DNA from: Chlorobiaceae bacterium
Lineage (GTDB): Bacteria; Bacteroidota; Chlorobiia; Chlorobiales; Chlorobiaceae
Length of the DNA: 42,788 nucleotides
NCBI GenBank assembly: GCA_016931495.1
Contig: JAFGER010000027.1
Coordinates: 1 to 42,788, forward strand
Direction: 5' to 3'
Both the position numbers and the translations under genes were made by a program. Each line of letters opens with the position of its first letter. The stretch's first letter is position 1. Positions 36,222-42,196 of the stretch are shown piece by piece. Under the pieces are notes generated by a model. The model did not search any database. It saw only the letters and a list, made by a program, of their open reading frames with translations, and had not been told where the DNA came from.

Positions 36222-36874
36222 ACAGTAAACTCTTTTTCTATTACGTTTGAGACTTCCGATGAAAAATCAATCAGGAAAAACCATAAGGACGACCAAAGTA
36301 AAAGTTTTACCACAAAAAACAAAATATGAAATCCCGTTTTTTTGATTTAACCGCCACTTTTGTCCAATCTTTTGTCCTGTCAGCAAAAACCCGCCAGACT
36401 TTGGTCACCTCCGGAAAACCTGTTCCGCAACCCGATTGCCGGCCTGCGCCCAACCTGTCGGCCCGGAATTCCCCTTGCGCTGCGCGAACACTCCGGACTC
36501 TCTGCACCGCTCACTTTGCTCCCGCCTCGCCCGCCTCACCTTCAAGAGATGCGCTGGCACGTCTCCCGTCCCGTTCCGGACGCCCGTTCCGGGTGCGCTC
36601 TTGGGTGAACGCACCGAATCATCCACACCGTCATTCATCTCGGCAGCCCCTCCAATCCGGAGGCGGAAGGCCTCCCGCATAGCTTGAATTCCACAACTTT
36701 ATTTCGTAAATATACAAGCCCGCAGGATAGCCGTCAGTCCGCCTCCGGCGTACTATCCACTTGCGACATCAGCCTTTTCACAAGACATCGGGCAGCATTG
36801 TCACGCAAAAGAGATCCATACACGCAGGGTGCAGCTGCTGCCTTGCCAAACGGCCTGACTGAAATAAACCGATC
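36222..36874. other. Divergent intergenic region, rpsL / NRPS
   Basis: This 653-bp stretch lies between two divergent genes and must hold both promoters. I see no convincing gene; the several short frames in it disagree with each other. The 36240-36360 part is AT-rich and contains a perfect palindrome GTAAAAGTTTTAC (36298-36310), about 80 bp before rpsL. Two hairpins lie nearer the NRPS: GGTGCG/CGCACC (36592-36615) and GGAGGC/GCCTCC (36659-36675). Neither has a T-run. No -35/-10 pair was clear enough to call. Confidence 0.5.
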
Positions 36875-39800
36875 ATGACACCATCCGGACAGCGCGATAA
36901 TGGAAACCATCTGCCGTCCGGCGATGCGTTCCCCTCTCTTTTTCCATCCTCCTCGCTGCAGAAAGAGCTGTGGCGCTTGCAGCACGAAAACACGCCGCCG
37001 CAAGGCAACGTGCCGCTGATGGTCACCCTTGCCGGACCGCTGAACGTGAAAGCCCTGGTTTCAAGCCTTGAGCACCTGCTCATGCGCCACGAGATGCTGC
37101 GCACCGTTTTCACGTTTGAACAAGAGCAGCTCATGCTGCGGGTGCTGCCAGCATGGACGCCCGAGCTGCGCCAGATCGATCTGTCCGGCAGCAGCCGGCC
37201 GCTCATCGACCTGGAAATCGAGCGCATTATCGAACAGGAGCGCACGAGAATCTTCGACTCTGAAAATGCGCCATTGTGGAACGCGCTCCTCCTCAGGCTC
37301 GGCGCCAGCGATGCCCGCCTGTTCATCACCTTCCATCGCCTGATAATCGACGAACCATCCATCAGCCACTTCGTCAGCGAGCTGGCGCTCTGCCATGAGG
37401 CCTTTTCGCGAGGAGTGCCGCCGGAACTGCCCTCGCCACGCGCCTCATACGGGCACTTCGCGTTGCAGCAGAACCGGAGCATCGAAAGCGGCTCGTTTGA
37501 TCCTCAGCTCGAATACTGGAAACGCACCCTTAAAGACTGCCCGTTCACCCAGGAAATCCCCGGCGACCTTACCAGACCGGCATTGCAGACCTTCTCTGGA
37601 GCTCGTCACCGTTTCGGTCTCGATCCGCAGCTCTCCAATCAGCTCAACCGCTGGTGCCGGCAAAACGGCTGTTCGCCTGAAGCTTTTTTCCTGGCGATCT
37701 TCCAGACGCTCATCCATCGCTACTCTGGACGCTCATGCATCATTACCGGCGTGCAGAGCGATCACCGGAACGGTTCGGCAGAGGAACAACTCATCGGCAA
37801 CTTCGCCAACAAGCTTCCCCTCAGAACCGACTTTGACGCAGAAGCCAGCTTCACGAGCGTGCTCGCCCAGGTCGGCAGCAAGGCTCGCGAGGCGTTCGAG
37901 CACGGCAACGTTCCCTTCGAGCTCATACCGGAAAGCCTCGGAGGCGAAGGCGACCGCAGCCGTCATCCCGTCTTCCAGAACCTCTTCATCTTCCGGAATC
38001 AGCCCGAAACCTCCTTCAGGGCGGGCGATATTGACTTTCGGTACGAAACGCTTCCGGGCGGCACGGTACCGCTCGATCTCCAGCTTCAGCTCAACATGGG
38101 GCGCGACAGCTTCGATGCCTGGATCGACTATAACACCGACCTGTTCAAAAGCAGCACCATCCAGCGTTTCGCCACCGATTTCGCCTGGGCGGCAGCTCAT
38201 GCGCAGACGAACCCGGAGATGCCGGTCGGCGCATGGCAGCTGCCCTCCGTGCCGGTGATCGGCTGCGACCTTGCCGATCCCGGCCACGGCTCCTGCTGCC
38301 ATCACCTGGTCGAGGTGCACGCCAGAGCCAATCCGGATCACCCGGCCATCATCAGCGGAACCCGTCAGCTCACCTACCGGGAACTCGATGCCGCCGCCGG
38401 CCGTCTTGCCTCGCTGCTCGTGGCGCGCGGCATCACTGCCGACACGCCGGTCGGCCTGTGCATGAACCGCTCTCCGGAGATGTGCATCGGCATTCTCGGC
38501 ATCCTGAAAGCCGGCGGCGCCTACCTCCCCCTCGATCCCGCCTATCCTGAAGAACGCCTGCGCTTCATGATCACCGATTCCGGCATGCGCCTTGCCCTCA
38601 CCGACCAGGCGACCGCCGAATCGCTCACCTGCGGCGAACTGGTCGAACTCCTGCTCATCGACCGGCTGCCGGAGATGCCGGCCGCAGAACCGCCGGCCAG
38701 CCGTATCGATTCCAGTAATCTGGCCTACATGATGTACACCTCCGGCAGCACCGGCACGCCGAAGGGGGTCATGATCACGCATGGCAATGTGGTGAGCTTT
38801 GCCCTGTCGGCCGTAGCGCGCTATGGCATTACGGCTTCCGACCGCGTGCTGCAATTCTTCTCCGTCAGCTTCGACGGCTCGATCGAGGAGATCTTCACCA
38901 CCTGGGCCGCAGGCGGCACGCTGGTGCTCCGTGACTTTCCGGTCGAGCTCACCGCCGACGATTTTTTCCGGCAGATCGACAAGTACCGCATTTCCGTCAT
39001 CGACCTTCCGACCGCGTTCTGGCACGAGCTGGTCAACAGCATCCGCAGTGACAGGATGCAGCTGCCCGGCTCACTCCGGCTGGTCATCATCGGCGGCGAA
39101 CAGGCCTCACTACCGATTTACCGGAAATGGCGCAACCTGTTCGGCGACACCCCGAAGCTCATCAACACCTACGGCCCTACCGAAACCACGGTCGTGGCGC
39201 TCTGCGCCGATCCGGCAACCATCGACCGGCTCGAAGAGCATCAGGGAGGCCTGCCGATCGGCACGCCGCTCGACAACACCTGCATCGCCGTGGTCAGCGA
39301 ATCCCTGAACCTCATGCCCTTCGGCATGCCGGGCGAACTGCTCATCGGCGGCACCGGCGTGGCCCGAGGCTATCTGAACCGCCCCGAACTCAACCGGGAA
39401 AAGTTCATCGAAGGCCTGCCGCATCGCGCTGCTGCTGGCGGGCGCTTCTACCGCACCGGAGATCTGGTGCGCTTTCTCGAAGACGGAAACCTCCTGTTTC
39501 TCGGCCGCACCGATCACCAGGTCAAAATCAGAGGATTCAGAATCGAGCCGACCGGCATCGAAGCGCAGCTCAACCTTCATCCGTCGGTCAAAAACTCTGC
39601 GGTGATCGACTATAAAGACAATGCGGGCCAATCATTCCTCGTAGCCTATATCCTGCCCGAAACCACGGCCCCCGCGCCCGGCGAGCTGAAGAGCCACCTG
39701 TCGAAACAGCTGCCCGATTACATGGTGCCGCCGCACTTCATCTGCCTCGACGCCTTTCCGATGCTGCCAAACGGCAAAATCAACCGGAACGGCTTTCCCC

Positions 39801-41458
39801 CGCTGGAGCTGGAATCAACACGGCAGGAGCGCCCGATCACCCCGCCATCGAGCGAGCTCGAAGGCAGACTCGTTGAAATCTGGGAACAGGTGCTCGGCAT
39901 CAGCCCCATCGGCATCGACGACAACTTTTTTGACCTCGGCGGCCACTCCCTCATGGCCGTGCGACTGTGCGCCAGCATCAACGAACAGCTGCAAACCAGC
40001 CTCACGCTCTCCGGCCTGTTCCAGAACCTGACGATTGAAACCCTCGCCCGGCAGCTCAAGAAGAACAAACCGCAGGAAAACCTGCAAGGCACCATCCTCA
40101 TGCAGCCGGGCGCACCGTTCGGAACGATGCCGCCGCTTTTCTTCATTCATGTGCTCGGCACGGGGCTGAAATTCTGCCGCCCGATGGTCACCCATCTCGG
40201 CAAAGAGCTGCCCGTGTACGCCCTGTCGGTTCAGCTGCTCCAGGAGAGTCCGCTGAAAGAGAACTCCATCGAAGAGCTTGCCGCGTTTTATATCGGGGAG
40301 ATCAAAAAAATCGTGCCCGAAGGCCCCTATCTGTTCGTCGGCATCTCCTTCGGCGGCATGGTAATCTTTGAAATGGCCCGCCAGCTCGAAGCCGCCAATG
40401 ACGATGTCCGCCTCGTCGGGCTCATGGATACCATTCCCCCATGGGCCTACACAACGCTCGACTCCTCCAGCCGGCTCAAAGAGCACGGCGCCCGGCTCAG
40501 GGAAGAGGGCGTCGGCTACCTCGCAAGAAAAATACAGGACCGGCTGACCCATGAACGGGAAATGGCGATCATGCGGCTGAAGAATTTCCAGAACAGCCTG
40601 ACGCTCAGCTATTACCTGAAGAGCGGACGGGCGGATCAGATGCCCGTCGGGATCAAGGAGTTCGCCGCCCGGCAGGAAAACGACGAGGCATCGGCACGCT
40701 ATTCACCGGCTCCGTACAAAGGCAAGGTCACGCTCTTCAAAAGCCTCGAACGATCGAGCGCCATCAGCGTCGTTACAGACCACGAGCTTGGGTGGAGCAG
40801 ATTCGCCCTGGGAGGCGTGGAAATCATCGACTGCCCCAGCGACCACCTTGGCATGCTCAGCGAACCCTATGTGCGCACCGTGGCCGAACAGCTCTCGCAA
40901 TGCATCACCAGATCGCTCTCGGAGGAGCGTGAGACGGGTGCGGCTGAACGCTTCCGGATCCGGCCGATCAGAACCGGTGACGGCCAACTGCTCAAAACGG
41001 TCACGCTCCGCTCGGTGCAGGAATCGCCTGACGCCTTTGTCATCACGCTCGAAGAGATTCACAGCAACCCCGACGCCTTCTGGGAAAATCTTGCCGACTT
41101 CATCGCCTCGTCGAAACAGGATGAAATCTATCTGCTGTTCGACAACGGCCAATGCATCGGCTACTCCGGCGGTCATATCGACAGCCGGAAACCCGGCACA
41201 GGCCATCTTCGCTGGATGTGGGTGGACCCGGCCTCAAGAGGGCACGGTCTTGGCTCGAAGCTGATTAAAAAAATCGTAGATTGGGCAAAACAGAAGGGTG
41301 CGCGTGAAATGGAACTCTGGGTCTCGCAAACCCAGGAGGCCGCCATTGGAGCTTACCGGTCCAATGGCTTCCGTCTCACCGGCGACATTGAAGCCGTTCG
41401 GCCCGGCTCGACGATCATGTCGAAAAAAATGATCAGGGACATCACGACGGAAACATGA
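36875..41458 (+). CDS. One-module NRPS (C-A-PCP-TE) with C-terminal GNAT
   Basis: The protein is 1527 aa. Condensation domain, about 20-450: RHEMLRTVF is intact, but the HHxxxDG site reads HRLIIDE (154-160), so the catalytic second His appears to be Arg155. Adenylation domain, about 475-975: YTSGSTGTPKG, NTYGPTE, YRTGDL and Lys968 in NGK are all present. Carrier domain: DNFFDLGGHSL with Ser1025. Thioesterase, about 1085-1340: GISFG with Ser1158, Asp1185 and His1324. GNAT acetyltransferase, about 1358-1520: RGHGLG at 1455-1460. The C-A-PCP-TE order is that of EntF; the GNAT end is unusual. The PPTase gene follows 12 bp later. The product is unknown. Confidence 0.92.
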   Translation: MTPSGQRDNGNHLPSGDAFPSLFPSSSLQKELWRLQHENTPPQGNVPLMVTLAGPLNVKALVSSLEHLLMRHEMLRTVFTFEQEQLMLRVLPAWTPELRQIDLSGSSRPLIDLEIERIIEQERTRIFDSENAPLWNALLLRLGASDARLFITFHRLIIDEPSISHFVSELALCHEAFSRGVPPELPSPRASYGHFALQQNRSIESGSFDPQLEYWKRTLKDCPFTQEIPGDLTRPALQTFSGARHRFGLDPQLSNQLNRWCRQNGCSPEAFFLAIFQTLIHRYSGRSCIITGVQSDHRNGSAEEQLIGNFANKLPLRTDFDAEASFTSVLAQVGSKAREAFEHGNVPFELIPESLGGEGDRSRHPVFQNLFIFRNQPETSFRAGDIDFRYETLPGGTVPLDLQLQLNMGRDSFDAWIDYNTDLFKSSTIQRFATDFAWAAAHAQTNPEMPVGAWQLPSVPVIGCDLADPGHGSCCHHLVEVHARANPDHPAIISGTRQLTYRELDAAAGRLASLLVARGITADTPVGLCMNRSPEMCIGILGILKAGGAYLPLDPAYPEERLRFMITDSGMRLALTDQATAESLTCGELVELLLIDRLPEMPAAEPPASRIDSSNLAYMMYTSGSTGTPKGVMITHGNVVSFALSAVARYGITASDRVLQFFSVSFDGSIEEIFTTWAAGGTLVLRDFPVELTADDFFRQIDKYRISVIDLPTAFWHELVNSIRSDRMQLPGSLRLVIIGGEQASLPIYRKWRNLFGDTPKLINTYGPTETTVVALCADPATIDRLEEHQGGLPIGTPLDNTCIAVVSESLNLMPFGMPGELLIGGTGVARGYLNRPELNREKFIEGLPHRAAAGGRFYRTGDLVRFLEDGNLLFLGRTDHQVKIRGFRIEPTGIEAQLNLHPSVKNSAVIDYKDNAGQSFLVAYILPETTAPAPGELKSHLSKQLPDYMVPPHFICLDAFPMLPNGKINRNGFPPLELESTRQERPITPPSSELEGRLVEIWEQVLGISPIGIDDNFFDLGGHSLMAVRLCASINEQLQTSLTLSGLFQNLTIETLARQLKKNKPQENLQGTILMQPGAPFGTMPPLFFIHVLGTGLKFCRPMVTHLGKELPVYALSVQLLQESPLKENSIEELAAFYIGEIKKIVPEGPYLFVGISFGGMVIFEMARQLEAANDDVRLVGLMDTIPPWAYTTLDSSSRLKEHGARLREEGVGYLARKIQDRLTHEREMAIMRLKNFQNSLTLSYYLKSGRADQMPVGIKEFAARQENDEASARYSPAPYKGKVTLFKSLERSSAISVVTDHELGWSRFALGGVEIIDCPSDHLGMLSEPYVRTVAEQLSQCITRSLSEERETGAAERFRIRPIRTGDGQLLKTVTLRSVQESPDAFVITLEEIHSNPDAFWENLADFIASSKQDEIYLLFDNGQCIGYSGGHIDSRKPGTGHLRWMWVDPASRGHGLGSKLIKKIVDWAKQKGAREMELWVSQTQEAAIGAYRSNGFRLTGDIEAVRPGSTIMSKKMIRDITTET

Positions 41459-41470
41459 GGACAACAGACG

Positions 41471-42196
41471 ATGATCATCAGCAACGAGGGTGTCACGGCC
41501 ATCCATACCGACGTTCAGGCCATCGGCATTCCCGCCGAAGAGCTGTCCGCCCTCCTTTCGGACGATGAACGGACGCGGGCCGGCTCGTTTCGTTTCGAGA
41601 CCGACCGCATGCGCTTCATCATCCGGCGAGGCCTGCTCAGGCGGATGCTCGGCGCGGCGCTCGGCGTCCAGCCCGCCATGATCCGCTTTTCGGCCACCGA
41701 GGTCGGCAAACCCTTCATCGCCTGGCCCGAACAGCCTGGCCTGCACTTCAACCTCTCGCACTCCGGCGACCAGATCGTCTATGCCTTCTCCCGCCATCCC
41801 GAAACCGGCATCGACATCGAGCGCATCCGCACGGTTGACGGCATCGACCGGCTGGCCCGAAACTACTTTTCCGCCGAAGAGTACGCGCTGGTCATCAACC
41901 TCCCCGCGTGGGAAAAGAACAAAGCCTTCATCAAGCTCTGGTGCATCAAGGAGGCGCTCATCAAGGCCAGCGGATGGACGCTCGAACACGGCCTCACCGC
42001 TTTCGATGTGGCGGCGCAATACCGCATGAACCGCTTCCGGGTGCCGTTCGGCGATACCCGCACGCTCACCTGCATCACCCCCGTCTTCGAGCACATCTGC
42101 GGTTACGCCACCACCCTTGCCATCCGCCTCGACGAGGGCGAAGCCCTGCGCCTCCACCGCTACACCTTCCAGAGCGGCGAAGCCGTCCGGCTCTGA
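41471..42196 (+). CDS. Sfp-type 4'-phosphopantetheinyl transferase
   Basis: This 241-aa enzyme moves phosphopantetheine from CoA to the carrier-protein Ser. The Sfp-type motifs are GKPFI at 79-83, LHFNLSHSGD at 91-100, GIDIE at 113-117 (Mg-binding Asp115 and Glu117), FSAEE at 133-137 and WCIKEALIKA at 157-166. It starts 12 bp after the NRPS stop, with GAGGA near the stop codon serving as ribosome site, so the two genes form an operon. Its obvious target is Ser1025 of the NRPS. It could also serve other carrier proteins in the cell. Confidence 0.95.
   Translation: MIISNEGVTAIHTDVQAIGIPAEELSALLSDDERTRAGSFRFETDRMRFIIRRGLLRRMLGAALGVQPAMIRFSATEVGKPFIAWPEQPGLHFNLSHSGDQIVYAFSRHPETGIDIERIRTVDGIDRLARNYFSAEEYALVINLPAWEKNKAFIKLWCIKEALIKASGWTLEHGLTAFDVAAQYRMNRFRVPFGDTRTLTCITPVFEHICGYATTLAIRLDEGEALRLHRYTFQSGEAVRL

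Follow-up and report, generated by a model that had tools for sequence, protein, structure and literature searches.

A single-module NRPS with a degenerate condensation domain and a fused acetyltransferase in a green sulfur bacterium

An NRPS gene between rpsL and a PPTase gene

The window considered here is a stretch of 42,788 nucleotides that makes up an entire contig (C50) of a Chlorobiaceae bacterium and is readable to the contig ends only. The 2.25-Mb source assembly comprises 106 contigs and is 92.65% complete. The forward strand carries an NRPS gene (36875–41458) that encodes 1527 amino acids from an ATG start codon with no internal stops. It is followed, 12 bp past its stop codon, by a gene for an Sfp/HetI-type PPTase of 241 amino acids (41471–42196), which matches the Pfam families ACPS (2e-15) and AASDHPPT_N (3.7e-12). 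The ORF list of the window contains both ORFs as described in an earlier note on this DNA, and the Pfam domain order confirms its reading of a C-A-PCP-TE-GNAT arrangement in one chain with an Sfp-type PPTase directly behind. The region between rpsL and the NRPS gene (36222–36874) aligns with the conserved rpsL leader over its first ~150 bp, and the remainder is unique. Horizontal import was considered on grounds of composition and is unsupported, as the GC3 of the NRPS gene (0.77) lies inside the range of the window's genes. A partial ORF with a PASTA domain is located at the contig end (42433–42786), and such an ORF also adjoins the PPTase gene in genomes G002, G003 and G015.

The protein begins with a condensation (C) domain (amino acids 24–457; 36944–38245; Pfam 7e-71) that is of the LCL type by descent and is predicted to be inactive. 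Its C3 motif, identified by alignment and confirmed in the codons, reads HRLIIDE (amino acids 154–160; 37334–37354) in place of HHLIIDG. The adenylation (A) domain (amino acids 480–968; 38312–39778) consists of an AMP-binding region (amino acids 480–834; Pfam 1.3e-88) and a C-terminal subdomain (amino acids 895–968). Next is a peptidyl carrier (PCP) domain (amino acids 998–1060; 39866–40054; PP-binding, 6.7e-16), whose LGGHSL motif includes Ser1025. The thioesterase (TE) extends over approximately amino acids 1085–1345 (40127–40909), has a Pfam Thioesterase match at amino acids 1089–1191 (1e-16), and carries the residues Ser1158, Asp1185 and His1324. The C-terminal GNAT acetyltransferase (amino acids 1359–1506; 40949–41392; Acetyltransf_1, 8.7e-20 at amino acids 1403–1499) retains an intact acetyl-CoA motif, RGHGLG, and the gene closes with a segment (41401–41458) encoding PGSTIMSKKMI.

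A genome-wide domain search detected this single C domain in the 2.25-Mb assembly and only two carrier domains, which are the PCP of the NRPS and a 90-amino-acid AcpP. No further NRPS gene was found in the window or in the rest of the assembly. The absence of siderophore-type partners noted earlier is thus borne out, and a known siderophore cluster beyond the window was rejected as an explanation, as the genome has neither a second C domain nor an extra carrier. The unit was also proposed to be self-contained, which holds only insofar as the genome offers no partner NRPS or additional carrier; the PPTase is not its own (see below). The earlier anatomy was correct as far as it went, although it overlooked both HRLIIDE in place of HHxxxDG and the additional N-terminal A-PCP of the relatives.

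Dimodular relatives and the TE-GNAT fusion

Across 86 genomes searched within the family, the C-A-PCP-TE-GNAT block was detected in five others (G009, G020, G005, G001 and G045), in two of which (G001 and G045) it is split into two pieces. The ORFs of G009, G020 and G005 are 2156–2164 amino acids long, align to amino acids 8–1522 of the window NRPS at ~45–46% identity, and carry an additional A-PCP upstream of the shared block. The relatives therefore have the dimodular order A-PCP-C-A-PCP-TE-GNAT, whereas the window NRPS is without the first A-PCP. Four of the five dimodular relatives are located beside groESL rather than beside the resident PPTase as in the window. In the closed genome G001, the dimodular NRPS (L044:10895–17381) occupies two overlapping frames that meet at an FFF stretch, reflecting either a frameshift or a sequencing error.

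Other members of the family are shorter or damaged. G013 has a dimodular form without the GNAT, G007 has A1-PCP-TE with the PPTase adjacent, and G068 has A1-PCP-TE-GNAT with a degraded acetyl-CoA motif. An A-PCP-TE copy in G057 (L031) is broken by frameshifts and constitutes a pseudogene of the same family.

The earlier note had suggested looking for the same fusion in other Chlorobi, and a GNAT profile indeed recovered it in seven of 98 Chlorobia genomes, the source genome included. No stand-alone close relative of the GNAT was found with this profile in the 98 genomes, where the remaining matches score ~35–40 bits versus 285–320 bits for the fused copies. No additional fusion emerged from 394 genomes sampled across the phylum. 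These profile searches indicate that the fusion is genuine and, within the genomes searched, confined to the Chlorobiaceae. Back-translated patterns run against GTDB contigs yielded seven loci, all merely generic NRPS or A-domain matches. Our survey of the literature on NRPSs in green sulfur bacteria found no NRPS product, and the dimodular A-PCP-C-A-PCP-TE-GNAT enzyme is unnamed in the papers searched.

Degeneration of the condensation domain

Two substitutions, H155R (codon CGC) and G160E (codon GAA), turn HHLIIDG into the HRLIIDE of the window. The motif is HHLIIDG in G009, G020, G005, G001 and G045 and SHLIIDG in G013, such that the second His and the Gly are kept in all six relatives. These two residues of HHxxxDG are listed as catalytic for C domains, and the same source names the RHExLRT and YW residues as important for folding (PMC1894796). 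The window C domain thus lacks what a functional LCL domain has at this motif, although alignments suggest that its folding residues are kept.

The change is not limited to the motif. Among positions invariant in the six relatives, the window protein keeps only 63% in the C domain, whereas the values for A, PCP and TE are 88, 89 and 78%; for C, A, PCP and TE in that order, the G013 branch, used as a control, keeps 80, 87, 86 and 85%, respectively. The ratio of the window branch to the G013 branch is 1.79 for the C domain (95% CI 1.37–2.36), 0.96 for A and 1.05 for TE. Maximum-likelihood trees agree, with window and G013 branches of 1.29 versus 0.67 for C and 0.50 versus 0.53 for A. The window sequence, including H155R, G160E and the absent module, is known from one assembly of the species, and a domain-wide rate change is something that sequencing error cannot produce. 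We read this pattern as a probable relaxation of catalytic constraint on the C domain after loss of the donor module. Because a C domain without a donor would be unexpected as the original state, we infer that the first module was lost here rather than gained in the relatives.

Predicted substrate

The A domain carries the specificity code DGEDIGTVVK, which is shared with module 2 of G020, G001 and G013, is identical or nearly identical to the A2 codes of the dimodular relatives in general, and is unlike their module 1 code, DVYYLGGICK. It matches the lysine code DGEDHGTVVK (PMC12283262) at nine of ten residues, the single difference being I for H. The latter code has also been predicted for the first lysine of Pseudomonas syringae pyoverdine (PMC7139650), although an SVM predictor disagreed for that code (PMC3207962). 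The A domain of the window is therefore predicted to activate L-lysine or a close diamino acid. The nearest code to DVYYLGGICK is DVWYLGGICK, reported for methionine, and the substrates of both modules are predictions from such codes. The serine activation typical of EntF is not expected from this lysine-like code.

Green sulfur bacteria have been reported to contain the osmolyte N-acetyl-beta-lysine (Triado-Margarit 2011, as cited in PMC12776343). A link between this compound and the NRPS gene was considered, and we found no evidence connecting the two.

Thioesterase and acetyltransferase

The TE is matched far better by the profile of Pks13 (1.8e-22) than by that of EntF (4.8e-5). The PDB profile match to the Pks13 TE spans residues 10–274 and covers the full domain with its lid region, and an AlphaFold2 model (mean pLDDT 80) retrieves the same TE as the top PDB match in Foldseek (4.4e-14). 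The catalytic triad is present as well, making this the expected set of features for a Pks13-type TE. Pks13 ligates its mycolyl product to trehalose (PMC9900942), whereas the substrate predicted here is aminoacyl. The same TE subtype occurs in three loci situated amid glycosyltransferase genes (L048, L050 and L051 in G072, G075 and G060), where it ends proteins of order A-PCP-C-A-PCP-TE or A-PCP-TE that might carry out polysaccharide aminoacylation. The likeness of the TE to Pks13, together with these relatives among glycosyltransferase genes, makes transfer to a hydroxyl or amine acceptor possible, with hydrolysis as the alternative. However, the likeness amounts to ~20% identity and the model superimposes with an rmsd of 7–10 Å over two domains, so acyl transfer is at most weakly suggested.

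The RGHGLG sequence of the GNAT conforms to the acetyl-CoA signature R/Q-x-x-G-x-G/A. The solved structures nearest to it, all of them distant, belong to PaiA and further GNATs that are either general or act on small amines, and the domain scores below every cut-off for known amine acetyltransferases. GNAT domains are known from the loading regions of CurA-type PKSs, where they are N-terminal and fused to the assembly line. The window GNAT is likewise fused to an assembly line, but is located at the C terminus, after the TE.

The PPTase gene as a resident of the str locus

The PPTase had been taken to be the NRPS's own. However, an orthologue adjoins rpsL, beside the str operon, in eight relatives (G001, G002, G003, G004, G005, G009, G013 and G015), and coordinates place it there in G008 and G019 as well. 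No NRPS match at E ≤ 1e-20 was found in six of these ten (G002, G003, G004, G008, G015 and G019). For this reason, the PPTase gene is best described, from its genomic context, as a resident of the str locus and not as part of an NRPS cassette. All genomes of the genus also have a separate AcpS. Even so, G002, G003, G004, G015 and G019, where AcpP is the sole detected carrier, retain an intact Sfp-type PPTase; the loci of four of these that have no NRPS are L080, L081, L083 and L086 (G002, G003, G015 and G004, respectively).

In G002 and G003, the bases immediately before the PPTase gene align in frame with the 3ˊ end of the window NRPS gene (MSKKMI, preceded by PxxTx in G002). The alignment scores are 40 (G002) and 36 (G003), compared with maxima of 31 and 32 among shuffled sequences, and none of 500 shuffles reach them. 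Scores in six other relatives are 25–28, and the best match of the G002/G003 stretch across the whole window is this 3ˊ end. Although only ~45 bp long, the stretch is likely a deletion scar of the GNAT end, in which case the NRPS gene was once present at this site in the shared ancestor; conceivably, host sequence was instead captured during an insertion. A conserved element, GGGAACGATGC...CAAAAAATCGTAGATTGAGC, lies in the rpsL-PPTase intergenic region upstream of the PPTase gene in G001, G004, G005, G009 and G015 (L082, L083, L084, L086 and L087), and was not seen at this position in the window, G002 or G003.

A proposed one-module enzyme and competing explanations

With moderate confidence, we favour a model wherein the window NRPS is a shrunken descendant of a dimodular enzyme, working as one module that loads lysine and releases or transfers an acetylated lysyl group, its C domain being vestigial. 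The ancestor would have been a dipeptide synthetase with the order A1-PCP1-C-A2-PCP2-TE-GNAT, as in other Chlorobiaceae. Disappearance of the first module would have deprived the C domain of its upstream donor, after which the catalytic His and Gly were presumably replaced and the entire domain drifted as A, PCP, TE and GNAT stayed conserved. In the present enzyme, Ser1025 of the PCP would be phosphopantetheinylated, probably by the neighbouring resident PPTase, and the A domain would load L-lysine or a close diamino acid onto it. The TE might then take the lysyl group on Ser1158 and release it by transfer to an acceptor or by hydrolysis; the GNAT would acetylate one of the lysyl amino groups, either ahead of this release or following it. 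The C domain may persist in frame because it supports the A domain structurally. A small acylated amino acid is a plausible product. A donor module acting in trans, which would count against the one-module model, could be missing from the assembly, because this is 92.7% complete and divided among 106 contigs. A further reservation is that losing the catalytic His does not in all cases abolish every C-domain reaction.

We consider it unlikely that the gene is simply a decaying NRPS, damaged first in its C domain and yielding little or no product. The family has repeatedly been lost or broken, as seen from the probable scars in G002 and G003, the G057 pseudogene, the split frame of G001 and the degraded GNAT motif of G068. 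Yet the 4.6-kb frame is open throughout, the evolutionary rates of A, PCP and TE equal those of intact relatives, and the active-site residues of PCP, TE and GNAT are intact.

The C domain might instead be active as a starter domain that draws on AcpP or acyl-CoA for a fatty acyl group and gives N-acyl-lysine, with release by the TE and GNAT action on the free amine. AcpP is present, no in-line donor exists, and the fold-related residues appear to be kept, all of which suit such a role. This alternative is nevertheless quite improbable, given that both catalytic motif residues are gone, the domain drifts as a whole, and its descent is from an in-line C domain rather than from the starter clade.

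The version put forward in the earlier note, a working EntF-like C-A-PCP-TE enzyme with a dedicated PPTase and its donor in trans, draws on the domain order and on the 12-bp spacing, which makes co-transcription of the two genes likely. It fares poorly against a genome that has no second C domain, no other NRPS carrier and no aryl carrier, a dead C motif, and a PPTase gene that adjoins rpsL in six relatives lacking any NRPS match. Moreover, the protein scores 336.5 bits against an NCBIfam EntF cut-off of 2400, and its TE is Pks13-like. We regard this version as very unlikely, and the enzyme is better viewed as a dimodular synthetase reduced to one module.

An artefact of assembly or of the called gene start is hardly credible as the reason for the absent first module, even with 106 contigs, since the gene is flanked within the contig by rpsL and the PPTase gene, both at their usual positions, no A1-PCP1 remnant was found upstream of it, the whole assembly has one NRPS carrier domain, and the two modules of the relatives, only ~38–40% alike in protein, are too different to collapse.

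Comparison with known systems and implications

EntF (enterobactin synthase component F) and AB3403 (PDB 4zxh) share the C-A-PCP-TE order with the window NRPS, but have an active C domain, another TE subtype and no GNAT. A parallel for the C domain itself is the X domain of glycopeptide NRPSs, a P450-recruiting domain of the last module. As an inactive LCL domain, it too remains part of the protein despite having lost the catalytic His (PMC1894796), although the dead C domain of the window is N-terminal and has no known partner.

What is known of natural module loss from NRPS assembly lines comes mostly by inference from engineered systems or distant cases. A single family appears here to display the steps side by side, with intact dimodular enzymes, a single-module form with a dead C domain, A1-only forms (G007 and G068), a pseudogene (G057) and probable scars (G002 and G003). 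The window gene would therefore be an unusual natural example of assembly-line shrinkage, and the conserved TE-GNAT fusion suggests that green sulfur bacteria make an acetylated amino-acid product that has not been described.

More speculatively, and to be held only tentatively, lysine might be loaded, acetylated and transferred by the Pks13-like TE to a cell-envelope or sugar acceptor, such that a dipeptide synthetase has given rise to an aminoacylation enzyme with the C domain as a scaffold. If so, the L048, L050 and L051 systems of the glycosyltransferase clusters would be sister systems. Larger NRPS systems also exist in the group: in six genomes of a second genus (G027, G030, G050, G051, G066 and G023), large multi-gene NRPS clusters contain ORFs of ~3200 to 4200 amino acids.
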